A stretch of DNA of 49,925 bases from Candidatus Saccharimonadota bacterium. Its GTDB lineage: Bacteria > Patescibacteriota > Saccharimonadia > Saccharimonadales > UBA4665. Position 1 is the first letter of the stretch. Every line of letters begins with the position of its first letter. Below the pieces are notes generated by a model, which was given only the letters and a program-made list of their open reading frames with translations, was not told the DNA's origin and made no database searches. Shown here in pieces: positions 24,501-36,166 of this stretch. The position numbers and the translations under genes were made by a program. The stretch is from the NCBI GenBank assembly GCA_028286405.1, contig JAQBRP010000003.1, forward strand, positions 1 to 49,925. The letters run 5' to 3'.

Positions 24501-25190
24501 TACCTGAGCCAGCACCCGCTAGAGCTGTTTGAAGCCTACCTAAGCGAACAATGTACGCCGCTGAAGGAGCTAAAGCCGGAACACGATGGTCGAGTGATTA
24601 GTATTGGCGGTTCCATTGCTGACGTCCGTGAGATTGTCACCAAAAACGGTAAAAAAATGGCCTTTGTGAAATTGGAAGACGGTAGTGGCGAAATTGAGCT
24701 GATTCTATTCCCCAATGCACTGCAGCAGACGCTCGGTATTTGGGAGCGCGACCGCGTTGTGTTGGTTCGTGGCCGCGTCAACGCCAAGGACCGCGACGGC
24801 AACATGAGCAGTGAAGCCAAGGTTATGGTTGATGACGCCCGTGAGGTCACCGTGCAGCAGGCCACGGGCTATCAGCCAACCGGCAAGAAACCCAAGGTTC
24901 CCAAGCCAAACACCAAAGCAGCAATGCCCGGTCCCGGTGCTAAGGCGGCCGATGCCAAGCCCAAAGATCAGAAGTTATATATTCGCCTAGAGAGCAGCCA
25001 AGACCAGGCCCAGCTCACCAGTCTGAAGCAAACGCTGGATTCCTTCCGTGGTACCACTGAAGTGGTGCTGGTGCTTGGCAGTGATAGTTCACGGCAAGCA
25101 ATTAAGCTCCCCACTGGTGTTGACCGCGAAAGCGATGCCGTCTTCCGCTTGCGCGAACTGGTCGGCGCAGACAACATCCGCTTGCAGTAA
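21534..25190 (+). CDS. dnaE: DNA polymerase III subunit alpha
   Basis: PHP domain HLHNHTQYSLLDG, FGPGRGSAAGSIVAY, MPDIDIDIQDTRRGEV, OB-fold region; GTG start. Confidence 0.98.
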   Translation: MVTKTNALQASDYVHLHNHTQYSLLDGLTKVPALIDYVKQKDMVAVAQTDHGTMSGAIEFYKTATAEGVKPIIGMETYVAARTHLDKDPGKDKPNFHLILLAMNNQGYQNLMALSTTANLDGFYYKPRVDHELLKKYNEGLIVLSGCIGGEVGDAIRNEQYDQAKHIAEWYKSVFGDRYYIEVQDHGHPDHPSKWTEQERVNKGLLQLAKELNIQLVVTCDAHYLKHEDQEAHEILLCVQTGSFLSDEKRMSLKNFELHVTDPTEIIERWSALWPEAISNTRAIADRCDVTIELGKILIPKFPVPKGEDEKSYLDKLTYRGLAWRYGGVSPEDSEKLSVAEARKKLSKEIIERADYELGIMDSMGFNGYFLIVQDFMGWGKDQGIVFGPGRGSAAGSIVAYALRITEIEPLRYSLMFERFLNPSRISMPDIDIDIQDTRRGEVIQYCVEKYGEDRVANIVTFGRMAARNAVRDVSRVLQVPYAEADRLSKMIPPPIQGRHIPLAESIKKDPDLKAEYEQNETARRVFDLAVQMEGTIRSHGVHAAGVVIAPDSIVKFVPLEMAQKGVIATQYPMGPVEELGLLKMDFLGLSNLTILNNALRIIRKVYKQDINLNEIPNEDEATFQLLQRADTTGVFQLESAGMKRYLKELKPTLFEDIIAMGALYRPGPMSEIPRFIEGKNNPASISYLHESLEPILGDTYGVMVYQEQIIKLLQMVAGYTPGEADLVRKAIGKKNRNIMMAEEPKFIDGCIKQGLTPAGAKQLWKQIQPFADYSFNKAHATCYAQIAYWTAYLKAHYPAAFMAALMTSDYDDTDRLAIEITECKKMGIQVLPPDVNESFVEFAVVPDPKNPDNRLPPIRFGMNAIKNVGTGAVEEILRARKEDGQFDDLEQFLSTVNPRVVNRKAMESLVKAGAFDRFGERSKLLFNLEMMLAFAQRLQKQASSGQVDLFGNATGDVVVERAKLELQVSTEQHDTREQLLWERELLGLYLSQHPLELFEAYLSEQCTPLKELKPEHDGRVISIGGSIADVREIVTKNGKKMAFVKLEDGSGEIELILFPNALQQTLGIWERDRVVLVRGRVNAKDRDGNMSSEAKVMVDDAREVTVQQATGYQPTGKKPKVPKPNTKAAMPGPGAKAADAKPKDQKLYIRLESSQDQAQLTSLKQTLDSFRGTTEVVLVLGSDSSRQAIKLPTGVDRESDAVFRLRELVGADNIRLQ

Positions 25191-25213: not shown

Positions 25214-25278
25214 CACTCCAAAAAGTAGTATACGTTTGTTACTAATTTAGTAATCGATATATACCTGTTCTTGAAGTG
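25214..25278. repeat. Degenerate copy of 65-bp palindromic element (copy 1)
   Basis: Left arm cactccaaaaagtagtatacgtttg matches copy 2 left arm at 24/25 positions; centre TTACTAA-T-TTAGTAA is palindromic; right arm degraded. Confidence 0.8.
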
Positions 25279-25311: not shown

Positions 25312-26178
25312 TTAGTGGATGAAACCGGCGGTGTGAGTGAGCAGCACGGCGCTGACGGCCACGGCTACGAATAACGTGTCGAGCAAGGGGTGATGCAGTA
25401 CGAACAGCTCGCCGCGGCTAACCAGCTTGCGCCAGGCAATGCCGTGACGGATGAGTACGGCTATGATTGCCAGGCTGCCGATCAGACCCACGATAAAGCC
25501 ACTCATAGCTGGCGCTGCCATGGCTTGTATACGACTGACATTGTCGGCAGCCAGCGGTAGCCGGGTGCTGGCGGGGGCTACCGCGCCGCCTGATGGGCTA
25601 GCGTACATGGCGACCACCACTGTTTCGGTGCCATGGCCGAGGTAATTTGCTGATTGGGCAACACCAAAACCCACTTCGCTAAATGAGGTGTCGAGCATGT
25701 TGGCGCGGTGTTCGTCGCTGTGCATCCAGGCATTAGTGACGCTGCTGGCTGAATCGAAGCCGTAGGCTAAGTTTTCGCCGGCGGTCTGGTACTGGAAGCC
25801 AGCGGCAGTTATAAATTTCCAGGGCTTTTCGCCATCCGGTGAGCTGTGTGACCAATAATTTTGAGTCACCATATCGTCGGCCTTCGATTGGGCTGCTTGC
25901 TGTAGTTGATCGTTAAGGCTGAGGGTACCACGTTGGCTGTTTTGGCGATCGACATTGGTGGAGTCCAGCAGGGCTTGCTGTGTCAGGTTGGTGTGTTCAC
26001 CGAGTACGGTAACTGATCGGCTGAGGAGGGAGTTAACAAATAGCCCAGCGGCAATAACGGCAATCATCGGCAGATAGGGCCAGTACGATTTTATGTAGTG
26101 TTTAGTCTGCCGGTGGTGGGCAGCGACGCGTTTCTTGTGGTGGGTAGTTTTTGGTTTGGTTTTAGTGGCTATAGCCAT
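25312..26178 (-). CDS. CAP/SCP-domain (PR-1-like) membrane-anchored protein
   Basis: YWSHSSPDGEKPWKFITAAGFQYQTAGENLAYGF, WMHSDEHRANMLDTSFSEVGFGVA. Confidence 0.9.
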   Translation of the reverse strand: MAIATKTKPKTTHHKKRVAAHHRQTKHYIKSYWPYLPMIAVIAAGLFVNSLLSRSVTVLGEHTNLTQQALLDSTNVDRQNSQRGTLSLNDQLQQAAQSKADDMVTQNYWSHSSPDGEKPWKFITAAGFQYQTAGENLAYGFDSASSVTNAWMHSDEHRANMLDTSFSEVGFGVAQSANYLGHGTETVVVAMYASPSGGAVAPASTRLPLAADNVSRIQAMAAPAMSGFIVGLIGSLAIIAVLIRHGIAWRKLVSRGELFVLHHPLLDTLFVAVAVSAVLLTHTAGFIH

Positions 26179-31393: not shown

Positions 31394-31741
31394 ATGAGTT
31401 CTACCCAAACTGGGCGTAAAGCTGAAGCTGCCGCGGCCATGTACCTCGAAATGCGTGGGTATAGCATTATTGAACGCAACTTTCGGCGTCCGCGCTGCGA
31501 AATTGATGTTATCGCCAGTAAGGATGGGGTGGTTTATTTTGTAGAAGTAAAATACCGGCGCAATGACGACCAGGGCGGCGGCTTTGAGGCTATTACTGCC
31601 ACTAAGCTAAAACAAATGAAGTACGCCTCCGAAATTTGGGTGCAAGAAACCAAGTGGCAAGGCGCGTTTCAGTTGGCTGCCATTGAACTCAGTGGGCCGG
31701 ATTTTTCGGTACTGGGCTTTATAGACAACGTCTATTTTTGA
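31394..31741 (+). CDS. YraN/UPF0102 family endonuclease-like protein
   Basis: GRKAEAAAAMYLEMRGYSIIERNFRRPRCEIDVIASKDGVVYFVEVKYR. Confidence 0.92.
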   Translation: MSSTQTGRKAEAAAAMYLEMRGYSIIERNFRRPRCEIDVIASKDGVVYFVEVKYRRNDDQGGGFEAITATKLKQMKYASEIWVQETKWQGAFQLAAIELSGPDFSVLGFIDNVYF

Positions 31742-34317
31742 TGCTTGAAGTAGTCGCGGAGGGCCTGTAAGTCGCGCACTTTCCAGGCCGATTGCCACTG
31801 TATGGCTTCAATACCTTGTTTAATGGGGCGCTCTAGTGCTGGGCTCATATGCTGGCTAAAGAACGATTCAAATTCGGTTAAGAAGCTGACATCGCTTTGC
31901 ACTCGTGCGGCGTAGACCGGCATACGGTAAAAGCTGAGGTCATCGCCAACGTTGTCTTTGAGCCATTGCCAGTTGTCTTTGAGCCATTGCCAAGTAGTGG
32001 CCCGCGCGAAGCGGTTACCAAAGCTGTAGGCCACCCAGTACATGGCATCCTGCAGACGGACGTCGTCGCTCGTGATTTTGGACAAGGCCAGACTAATTTG
32101 GTCATCATGCTCAAAGCTGGTGAGGGCGGCGCTCAGCGTTACACGCTCCTCGCTGTTACTGCTGTCGTTGTGCAGCTGCCAGAGCTTGTCGAATTCAGCC
32201 TGGGAACCCAGGCGAGCGGCCGTGCTGTACACAATGCCGCGAATGTCGGGGGCAATGTCTTCGGGCTTGGTCATAGTAGCAAAGCGATGGAGCGCTTCCT
32301 TGACGACGGCGGGCTCGTCGGCCGCTGCTGCGAGGGCTAGAATAGTTGGCCGAAGTAGGAGGTCAAAGTGACTGTCGCCGGGCTTTTCTTCCCAACCCAA
32401 GCGAGCAAGCTGCTTGGCAACCAGCTGACGAATGTAGGGCTTAAGGCTTTCGCGCAGCTCATCGTCATTCATGACCATTTTTAGACTGCCGATACCGCTG
32501 GCTATAATATCCCAAACGACCAGGCTATCTTCGTCGCGGTAGGCTTCCAGTAGCTTGAGGGCGTCGACGCTGCTGCTGTAGCCGGCTTTGGCGGTTTCGA
32601 AAGCGTCGGCCAAGAGGCCAAGTCGATCAAGCTCGTTTAAATCACCGGCTTGGATTGCCGGCACCAAGCCCTGTTCCAAGTGATCTGAGTCGTATACCGT
32701 ACGGAAAAAGGCCGCTCGGTTGTGGTTGAGCAAAAAGCTGCCGGTTAAACTTTCGACTTCGATGGCTTGCTCTTCTTGAGACAGTGTTTCAAAGTTAAGC
32801 GGTTCGGTGGCGTCCAGCGGGATGGGCCAGGTTTCGGTTTGCTTGTCAGCAGCCGGGTTCAGGTAAAAGCGTTCTTGCCGCAGGTGTGGATCGTTGGCGG
32901 CAATGGTGGCGTGCACGATTGGGTAGCCTTCTTTGGTGGTCCAGGCGGTCATGAAATCGCCGATCGGCTTCCCAGAAGCTTCTTCCCAGGCGGCCCACAA
33001 ATCGCTCGAAGTGGTGTTGCCGTAGGCGTGTCGTTTTAGATACGTACGTAATCCATTGCGGAAATCATCGGGACCCATGTAAGCGTGTAACATGTGCAGC
33101 ACACTGCCACCCTTGGCGTAGCTAATAGTGTCAAAGATGGTGCGAATTTCGTCGGGGTGGTTAATGGCAACCTCGATGGGGTGGGTATTTTGCAAAGAGT
33201 CTTCTTTAAAGGCCTGAATTTGCTCGGCGACCACAAACTGCGTCCAGAACTGCCACTCTGGGAAGAGCTTATCGACGGCTAGGTAGGCCATCCAGGTGGC
33301 GAAGCTTTCGTTCAGCCACAGATCGTTCCACCATTTCATGGTGACTAAGTTGCCGAACCATTGGTGGGTTAGCTCGTGGGCCACGACTTCAGCGACGTAC
33401 TGCTTAATGCTAAGGCTGGTGTTTTTGGGGTCGACCAACATGACTTGCTCGCGGAAAGTAATACAGCCCCAGTTTTCCATAGCACCACTGGCGAAGTCTG
33501 GTAGCGCAATAAAGTCGCATTTGGCCAGTGGGTAGTCGAGGTCGAAATACTCGTTATAAAAGTCGAGGCATTTAACGCCAGCATCCAGCGCAAATTGGGT
33601 GAACTGCACATTGTCGGGGGTGGCGTAAGTGCGAACAGTGACGCCAGCTTTGGTTTTAGCTTCCAAGTATTCCATATCGCCGTAGACGAAAGCCAGCAGG
33701 TAGGTGCTCATACGAGGTGTTGGTTCAAAAACGGTTGTAACTTGGTGGTTTGCTGCTTGCGATGAGTTGACTGGAGTGTTAGCGACCACCGCTTTACTGT
33801 TTGCCTCGGGCGTGACGAGGGTTAGGTCAAACGTCGCCTTGGCCTCTGGTTCATCAATGCAAGGAAAAGCCTCGCGGGCATGGTGGCTTTCAAACTGGGT
33901 GGCAATCAGCTGCTTGTCTTTGCCATCGTGCTTGAAGGTGCAGGGGTACATGCCGTTCATTGGGCGAGTGATTTTGCCTTCGAACTGCATGGTCACCGTG
34001 TAATCCCCGGGGTACAGCATAGCGTCGCTGTGCAGCCGCACCTCGTCAAAACTGTCTTGATTGTTGATGCGGCTGACCGCAACTGGCTGGTCACCTTTTT
34101 TGTCGTGCTTAATAATGGTGGCGCTGGTGATTTTGAGCTGCTTTTGGTGAAAAGTAAGGCGCTGCGACGGTCGACCGGTTTTTTTGCCACGAACGATTAC
34201 CGCGCCACGGAAAGTCATGGCAGTATCGTCGAGTTCGAGCGTTAGATTATAATTTTCGGGCTGAAATTGTTCAAACAGGCGGCGGACTTTAGTAGGCATA
34301 AGTAAAGGGACCCTCAT
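31732..34317 (-). CDS. M1-family aminopeptidase (alternative start at 34299)
   Basis: FASGAMENWGCITFRE, HELTHQWFGNLVTMKWWNDLWLNESFATW. Confidence 0.96.
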   Translation of the reverse strand: MRVPLLMPTKVRRLFEQFQPENYNLTLELDDTAMTFRGAVIVRGKKTGRPSQRLTFHQKQLKITSATIIKHDKKGDQPVAVSRINNQDSFDEVRLHSDAMLYPGDYTVTMQFEGKITRPMNGMYPCTFKHDGKDKQLIATQFESHHAREAFPCIDEPEAKATFDLTLVTPEANSKAVVANTPVNSSQAANHQVTTVFEPTPRMSTYLLAFVYGDMEYLEAKTKAGVTVRTYATPDNVQFTQFALDAGVKCLDFYNEYFDLDYPLAKCDFIALPDFASGAMENWGCITFREQVMLVDPKNTSLSIKQYVAEVVAHELTHQWFGNLVTMKWWNDLWLNESFATWMAYLAVDKLFPEWQFWTQFVVAEQIQAFKEDSLQNTHPIEVAINHPDEIRTIFDTISYAKGGSVLHMLHAYMGPDDFRNGLRTYLKRHAYGNTTSSDLWAAWEEASGKPIGDFMTAWTTKEGYPIVHATIAANDPHLRQERFYLNPAADKQTETWPIPLDATEPLNFETLSQEEQAIEVESLTGSFLLNHNRAAFFRTVYDSDHLEQGLVPAIQAGDLNELDRLGLLADAFETAKAGYSSSVDALKLLEAYRDEDSLVVWDIIASGIGSLKMVMNDDELRESLKPYIRQLVAKQLARLGWEEKPGDSHFDLLLRPTILALAAAADEPAVVKEALHRFATMTKPEDIAPDIRGIVYSTAARLGSQAEFDKLWQLHNDSSNSEERVTLSAALTSFEHDDQISLALSKITSDDVRLQDAMYWVAYSFGNRFARATTWQWLKDNWQWLKDNVGDDLSFYRMPVYAARVQSDVSFLTEFESFFSQHMSPALERPIKQGIEAIQWQSAWKVRDLQALRDYFKHQK
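31951..31992. repeat. Perfect 21-bp x2 in-frame tandem duplication inside the M1 aminopeptidase
   Basis: gttgtctttgagccattgcca repeated exactly; encodes WQWLKDN-WQWLKDN. Confidence 0.95.
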
Positions 34318-34366: not shown

Positions 34367-34431
34367 CACTCCGAAAAGTAGTATACGTTTGATACTAAAT
34401 TGGTAACAAACGTATACTACTTTTCGGAGTG
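34367..34431. repeat. 65-bp palindromic element (copy 2) with perfect 25-bp arms
   Basis: cactccgaaaagtagtatacgtttg (34367-34391), 15-nt centre, caaacgtatactacttttcggagtg (34407-34431) is the exact reverse complement. Confidence 0.97.
34389..34418 (+). promoter_or_regulatory. Putative promoter toward nusA: TTGATA-N18-TATACT, inside the palindrome
   Basis: -35 34389-34394, -10 34413-34418; mirror promoter TTGTTA-N18-TATACT on minus strand (-10 34385-34380) toward the aminopeptidase. Confidence 0.6.
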
Positions 34432-34467: not shown

Positions 34468-34496
34468 TTGACATTAAGAGAGTGGCAGATCATAAT
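34468..34496 (+). promoter_or_regulatory. Second putative nusA promoter TTGACA-N17-CATAAT
   Basis: -35 34468-34473, -10 34491-34496. Confidence 0.5.
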
Positions 34497-34507
34497 AACG
34501 AGTGTTC

Positions 34508-34532
34508 ATCCGGCCGCGTGGTCGGATTTTTT
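34508..34532 (+). terminator. Terminator-like hairpin in nusA leader
   Basis: ATCCGGCC-gcgt-GGTCGGAT (one G-U) then TTTTT. Confidence 0.65.
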
Positions 34533-34575
34533 CATAAGAGACATGGACAATTTAGATAAACGAAAGGAAAAAATA

Positions 34576-35793
34576 ATGGACTTTGACGTCAAACAATTGG
34601 TGGTCGCGATTCGCGCCATCGCCGAAGAAAAGAACTTACCAGAAGAAACCGTACAGGATGCCGTTGAGCAAGCCCTGGCGGCTGCCTATCGCCGTGATTA
34701 CGGCGACCGCGAGCAAGAAATTCGCGTTGACATGAACCTAAACACCGGTGATGTTGATGCTTACATTTCGAAAGAAATTGTCGAAACGGTCGAAACACCA
34801 GCCTACGAGATTAGCCTGAGCGATGCTCAGGTAATGCGCAAAAACGCTCAGCTCGGCGAAACTATTGAAGTGCACGAAAAAGTTGAAAACTTTGGTCGTG
34901 TAGCAGCTCAAACTGCCAAGCAGGTTGTGTTACAGCGTCTGCGTGAAGCGGAACGCGAAATTGTGCTAGAAGAGTACGAAGATAAAATTGGTACCGTTAT
35001 TAACGCTACCGTTAGCCGTGTTGAGGGCAACATTGTACGCATCGACCTCGGTAAAGCCCAAGGTATCATGCCCCGCAGCGAGCAAATTCAGGGTGAGCGT
35101 TACTACCCCGGCCAACGCCTTAAAGTGTTCTTAAAGGATGTTGAGCGTGGCTTCCGTGGCCCACAGCTCGTTGTTAGCCGTGGCAATCGTGAATTTGTTG
35201 AATGGTTATTCCGTGGTGAAGTTCCCGAAATGGAAAGCGGTGCTGTCGAAATCAAGGGCTTGGCCCGTGAAGCCGGCGTCCGCAGCAAGATTGCTGTTTG
35301 GAGCAACGTCCCTGGCGTTGACCCGGTTGGAACCTTTGTTGGTGGCCACGGTACCCGTGTAAACGCGGTTATGAGTGAAATTGGCGAACAAGAAAAAATC
35401 GACATCATTGTATTTAGCGACAATATTTCTGACTACATCACCAACGCCCTGAGCCCAACGAAGGTCAGCAGCGTGAAGCTCGACGAAGCCAATAAGAAGG
35501 CTGTCGTACAAGTCCCTGAAGACCAGCTCAGCATTGCCATTGGTAAGGGCGGCCAGAACGTGCGTCTTGCCAGCAAGCTAACCGACTACGAGCTCGACAT
35601 CGAAGGCGACAAGCTGACACCAGCGCCTGTAGCTCAGCCCGAAAATCCTGAGGCTATCCCAACTGAAGCTGCACCAGCTCCAGTTGCCGCACCTGCCCAG
35701 GTTCAAAAGCAGAAGCCCCAGGCTCCCAAGCTGAAGAAGAAGAGCGAACTGGAAAACAGTCTGCTCGAAGCCATCGAAGAACACGGCGAATAG
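34576..35793 (+). CDS. nusA: Transcription termination/antitermination factor NusA
   Basis: YEDKIGTVINATVSRVEGNIVRIDLGKAQGIMPRSEQI, REAGVRSKIAVWSNVPGVDPVGTFVGGHGTRV, AIGKGGQNVRLASKL; ATG 34576 after SD aaagga. Confidence 0.97.
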   Translation: MDFDVKQLVVAIRAIAEEKNLPEETVQDAVEQALAAAYRRDYGDREQEIRVDMNLNTGDVDAYISKEIVETVETPAYEISLSDAQVMRKNAQLGETIEVHEKVENFGRVAAQTAKQVVLQRLREAEREIVLEEYEDKIGTVINATVSRVEGNIVRIDLGKAQGIMPRSEQIQGERYYPGQRLKVFLKDVERGFRGPQLVVSRGNREFVEWLFRGEVPEMESGAVEIKGLAREAGVRSKIAVWSNVPGVDPVGTFVGGHGTRVNAVMSEIGEQEKIDIIVFSDNISDYITNALSPTKVSSVKLDEANKKAVVQVPEDQLSIAIGKGGQNVRLASKLTDYELDIEGDKLTPAPVAQPENPEAIPTEAAPAPVAAPAQVQKQKPQAPKLKKKSELENSLLEAIEEHGE

Positions 35794-35795
35794 AT

Positions 35796-36128
35796 ATGAC
35801 GGGCGAGGGCTGTCAGCTCAACGTATTGCGGCCGATTCGTCGTGGCCTCCCCGTTATCGTTGGACGCGAAAAACTCTCTCCTGAGTGTGAGAGTTGCCTT
35901 GTCCATGGCTTTTTACGTGCGCGGCTTGAAGATGAAGTCACGGTGAAGTATGTCCACGACATACCCCTGAAGGCTAAAGATGAGTGGAAAGGCATACGAC
36001 AGGCCGTAACGGTCGAGGGTGCTATGCGGCGTAGTAGTCGGGAGGTCTTTTCTTATAGCCCGCCAGATAAGCCCTCTGAGGTAATTATGGTTGAAGACTT
36101 TACGTTTGATTGCCGAGAAGTGGAGTAA
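35796..36128 (+). CDS. Hypothetical protein downstream of nusA
   Basis: ORF starting 2 nt after nusA stop; no recognised domain. Confidence 0.6.
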   Translation: MTGEGCQLNVLRPIRRGLPVIVGREKLSPECESCLVHGFLRARLEDEVTVKYVHDIPLKAKDEWKGIRQAVTVEGAMRRSSREVFSYSPPDKPSEVIMVEDFTFDCREVE

Positions 36129-36155
36129 TTAGCACTCTTGACGTGAGAGTGCTAA
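36129..36155. promoter_or_regulatory. CIRCE element (HrcA operator)
   Basis: TTAGCACTC-TTGACGTGA-GAGTGCTAA, exact 9-N9-9 CIRCE consensus. Confidence 0.95.
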
Positions 36156-36166
36156 TTGGCTACGAT
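36138..36166 (+). promoter_or_regulatory. clpC promoter TTGACG-N17-TACGAT, -35 inside CIRCE spacer
   Basis: -35 36138-36143, -10 36161-36166. Confidence 0.7.

Follow-up and report, generated by a model that had tools for sequence, protein, structure and literature searches.

A 65-bp palindrome beside nusA is probably one copy of a miniature mobile element family in a Candidatus Saccharimonadota genome

The intergenic DNA between an M1 aminopeptidase gene and nusA carries a long palindrome at positions 34367-34431 of the window, the 49,925-nucleotide stretch of Candidatus Saccharimonadota DNA analysed here. Does this sequence serve its two divergent neighbours, or did it arrive there as a repeat? 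The initial annotation described exact 25-bp arms around a semi-palindromic 15-nt centre and a match far beyond chance, and both statements hold. Positions 34367-34391 are the exact reverse complement of 34407-34431, with the centre ATACTAAATTGGTAA between them, and because this centre is itself nearly symmetric the whole 65 bp form arms of 32 bases that mismatch at 2 positions. For random sequence as long as the window, the expected number of exact 25-bp arms lying within 60 nt is approximately 3e-9, and the palindrome score was 26 whereas no first-order Markov resample (280 kb of the genome) gave a score of 12 or more. A chance origin is excluded. The predicted RNA fold was likewise strong (−47.8 kcal/mol, z −12). 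Against the curated models of Rfam 15 the single match in the window was a tRNA, leaving the palindrome without a described RNA family, and its 65-mer had no match among plasmids or phages. Scanning 264 Gb for an exact 17-mer was uninformative, with 12 matches against about 30 expected by chance; two of the matches were Patescibacteria contigs with one identical promoter-like site, from which the palindrome was absent.

The genome to which the window belongs (G000, 636 kb examined, approximately 75% complete; the window is its contig C9) was searched with an 18-mer from one arm and then with a covariance model. At least eight full copies were found, every one exactly 65 bp long, at C1:27433, C7:25138, C9:25214, C9:34367, C14:136, C14:21415, C14:45380 and C17:12530; on the better strand their E-values ran from about 1e-20 to 1e-13. 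The initial annotation had proposed such a search of the genome and its relatives, and had itself missed the recurrence. A half-match on contig C10 was rejected as a further copy, having no partner arm. Since C9 is the window, a second copy lies within it at 25214-25278, between the convergent genes for DnaE (ending at 25190) and a CAP-domain protein (ending at 25312); neither it nor the copy at 34367 is assigned a strand. With 10 arm mismatches, this second copy is either decayed or of a mixed arm type. The copies diverge from each other by 6 to 22 bases and contain 1 to 10 arm mismatches each, those at C14:136 and C9:34367 being the cleanest, a range that reads as age or as a mixture of two arm types.

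These types, A (AAAGTAGTATAY) and B (AACAGGTATAC), were found in the combinations A/A, B/B and A/B, the copy at 34367-34431 being A/A. Common to the copies were the ends CACTC...GAGTG (with one 3′ end GAATG and one GAAGTG), an invariant core GTATA...TATAC, the centre TAC.AA...GTA and the total length. Elsewhere the two arms changed together: paired variants near columns 5-8 were CCG/CGG, CCA/TGG, CTA/TAG and CTC/GAG, and in the B/B copy a three-base block, GTA/TAC, was replaced in both arms by CAG/CTG. Two-sided changes occupied 16 cells against 8.8 expected in shuffles, a count reached by 0 of 500, although a set of eight is small for testing covariation. Over the same eight copies 87.9% of the cells were paired, a value reached in 2 of 500 shuffles, and pairing collapsed to 30-48% when the partner was slid by 1-3 columns. 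A permutation test in which the copies swapped their entire right arms gave p = 0.035; an earlier pair count on six copies had fallen short of significance, which was reached with eight. Because the copies differ by so many bases while their arms vary together, length, ends and the capacity to form a hairpin emerge as the constant features.

All eight copies are intergenic, which is not chance in a genome sample that is approximately 91% coding. Four lie in divergent gaps, three in codirectional gaps (one of them beside tRNA genes) and one in a convergent gap. Their neighbours include DnaE, the CAP protein, MscL, ArgS (read by eye), a GDSL lipase, a TrwB/HerA-like protein, MurJ, a ribbon-helix-helix protein, an FAD oxidase, the M1 peptidase and NusA, and share no common function. 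No target-site duplication was seen at any of the eight copies, whose flanks have no more than 2 bases in common.

Several of the flanking gene pairs adjoin in relatives lacking the element, and it follows that the element was inserted. Thus pepN and nusA are neighbours without it in G010 and G017, dnaE and the CAP gene form a back-to-back convergent pair in both G014 and G010, and the TrwB/HerA-like gene adjoins murJ in G014. By match ends, argS and mscL are 24 bp apart in G014, and the gap between the NDH and FAD oxidase genes is 57 bp in G017. The comparison is one of gene neighbours, the nearby intergenic DNA being too diverged for empty sites to be defined to the base. In the sister genome G001, pepN and nusA are approximately 4 kb apart. 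A recent insertion, one of the options raised initially, is thereby supported: the element is dispersed, this copy is among the best preserved, and its gene neighbours are conserved in relatives without it. Between the FAD oxidase and NDH genes of G014, where the corresponding gap in G000 carries the 65-bp element, we noticed MITE-like inverted repeats of about 20 bp (ACAACCTGGGGTACCGTATYC) roughly 80 bp apart (L184, G014:C2 692940-693160).

When 294 genomes of the order were searched with the model, the 65-bp element appeared in G000 alone. The only other genome of the genus, G001, contained shorter repeats of 43 and 37 bp which retain the core AAAAGTAGTATA, one of the two also having the CACTC end, and these are probable cousins. 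The pepN-nusA gap of G014 holds a different, 45-bp palindrome, unrelated in sequence and single-copy for its exact 15-mer end sequence, and it was rejected as a family member. So was a model match in G138, a different palindrome of 53 bp; in this genome, from another family of the order, two perfect palindromes with CCTTAGG/CCTTAAGG centres, one of about 53 bp and the other of about 40 bp, lie side by side (L185 1500-1600). Contig C18 of G000 itself displays two related AT-rich palindromes (CATACAAA...TTTGTATG; L170, positions 3429 and 12299), possibly a second repeat family.

With a probability of roughly three in four, the sequence at 34367-34431 is one copy of a low-copy, genus-confined, non-autonomous and hairpin-forming family of miniature elements that inserts between genes. 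The element is probably mobile. Its spread would have gone through a hairpin or other single-stranded intermediate, mobilised in trans by an enzyme that this analysis did not find, and selection would then act on the fold and on the ends CACTC...GAGTG. No Y1 transposase (PF01797) was found in G000 (75% complete) or G001 (90%). Neither was an autonomous parent transposon with the same ends found: in the 636 kb of G000 the model returned nothing but 65-bp copies, and the transposase scan covered the Y1 family. An unlikely variant is a RAYT-independent element in which near-perfect palindromy is kept copy by copy, changes in one arm being transferred to the opposite arm by hairpin-templated copying; in a reduced genome this would produce the subfamilies A/A, B/B and A/B.

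The initial annotation had proposed mirror-image promoters, or an operator, for both divergent genes. The aminopeptidase gene (31732-34317, minus strand; Pfam Peptidase_M1) starts 50 bp from the element, with a possible alternative start at 34299, and nusA (Pfam NusA_N, S1, KH_5) occupies 34576-35793 on the plus strand. The overlapping hexamers are indeed present within the palindrome, TTGATA-N18-TATACT on the plus strand and TTGTTA-N18-TATACT on the minus strand. Read in register across the copies, the −10 hexamer is TATACT (5/6) in 12 of 16 arms and TATACC in the four B-type positions, three copies losing the match in one or both arms, whereas the −35 match ranges from 1/6 to 5/6. Since the −35 varies and B arms lack the final T of the −10 while the B/B copy is still palindromic, the hexamers come with the arm sequence, and on these comparisons the mirror-image promoters are by-products of the element. 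Moreover, a likely native nusA promoter, TTGACA-N17-CATAAT (11/12 consensus), is located outside the element at 34468-34496 on the plus strand, 37 bp past it, and the sister genome has promoter-like hexamers at the matching place relative to the leader hairpin. A bidirectional sigma-70 promoter or operator selected for mutually exclusive expression of aminopeptidase and nusA is accordingly improbable. The share of copies in divergent gaps (4/8, against 41 of 214 gaps, or about 19%, in the genome sample) speaks for it but is only a mild enrichment; the other four copies are codirectional or convergent, and the equivalent divergent pair lacks the palindrome in G010 and G017 and has a different one in G014. 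The element may give rise to some accidental transcription outwards, and the TATACT hexamers might add weak transcription of neighbouring genes as a side effect.

The nusA leader contains a terminator-like hairpin of its own, CCGGCC-N-GGTCGG-T6 (34508-34533, plus strand), separate from the element. Of 28 genomes of the family, 25 have a similar hairpin in front of nusA (leaders L081-L106), in several directly after a sigma-70-like promoter. In B. subtilis, NusA is reported to be autoregulated by leader termination (PMC12288461), and by analogy the hairpin fits the same arrangement here. Further downstream, a CIRCE-like element, TTAGCACTC-N9-GAGTGCTAA (HrcA operator), was observed at 36127-36157 just upstream of a ClpC-like gene, and similar elements were present at the nusA-region loci of several relatives.

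Binding by a dimeric regulator or nucleoid protein, with the eight copies as a dispersed regulon or structural sites, appears more doubtful still: the long dyad, the invariant core GTATA...TATAC and one copy adjoining a CopG/ribbon-helix-helix gene speak for it, but the flanking genes are unrelated housekeeping genes, the arms covary copy by copy with no single half-site kept, and the element, which spans 65 bp between fixed ends, does not occur outside the genus. Least probable is that the element acts as an intrinsic terminator in both directions or as an RNA-processing hairpin. The strong RNA hairpin, copies 21-47 bp past stop codons at four sites and other palindromes of the genome that resemble A-stem-T terminators speak for this reading. 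Against it, half of the eight copies sit in divergent gaps, in which no gene ends; 34367-34431 was not called as a terminator, there being no GC stem with a T-run beyond it; and the T-run is inside the stem, followed by the CGGAGTG base.

As a miniature repeat family, the 65-bp elements would be little-described repeats for Saccharibacteria and Patescibacteria; a search of the literature on palindromic or miniature repeats in these groups found nothing relevant. The small set of copies allows the spread and upkeep of hairpin DNA to be followed, and it cautions that promoter-like hexamers in palindromic DNA may arise as by-products of repeats.

Among known systems, CREE/NEMIS of Neisseria are mostly 104-108 or 153-157 bp long with a central core, usually target TA, and can provide an RNA hairpin as well as promoters at either end or at both (PMC2649163). 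The 65-bp element is similarly small, intergenic, inverted-repeated and without coding capacity, and the hexamers at 34367-34431, variable in the other copies, would be candidates for an outward promoter; unlike CREE, it is palindromic throughout and has no target duplication. MITEs likewise have terminal inverted repeats, which here span the whole element, no genes and dispersed insertions; but no target-site duplication was seen here, and no parent transposon was found in the 636 kb of G000.

At one of their ends REP sequences carry an unpaired tag, GTAG or CGTC (PMC3733652), which the element lacks, GTAG occurring solely within the paired stem and missing from B arms. A further difference from REP and REPINs is that neither G000, which is 75% complete, nor G001 yielded a cognate RAYT, a Y1 transposase. 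Y1 transposases were detected in 12 of 59 genomes of the family. The RAYT-like loci of relatives were inspected for the element and carry other palindromes, several of those in other genera having unrelated ones with the core GGACGGACC. At L190-L196, L198 and L199, Y1 transposase genes of about 200-227 aa have repeated or palindromic motifs on both sides, mostly with the core GGACGGACC or GGTCGGACC, and are probable RAYT/REP systems of the family. REPINs are REP doublets that form hairpins, extragenic and fixed in length, with compensatory changes, and have been interpreted as non-autonomous mobile DNA (Bertels and Rainey 2011, PMC3116915). The same extragenic inverted doublet of fixed length and the same compensatory changes preserving a hairpin were found here, in eight copies where REPINs number hundreds. 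These sequences are best read as a new family of short and probably mobile palindromic repeats which, with no detectable RAYT, has a REPIN-like architecture.
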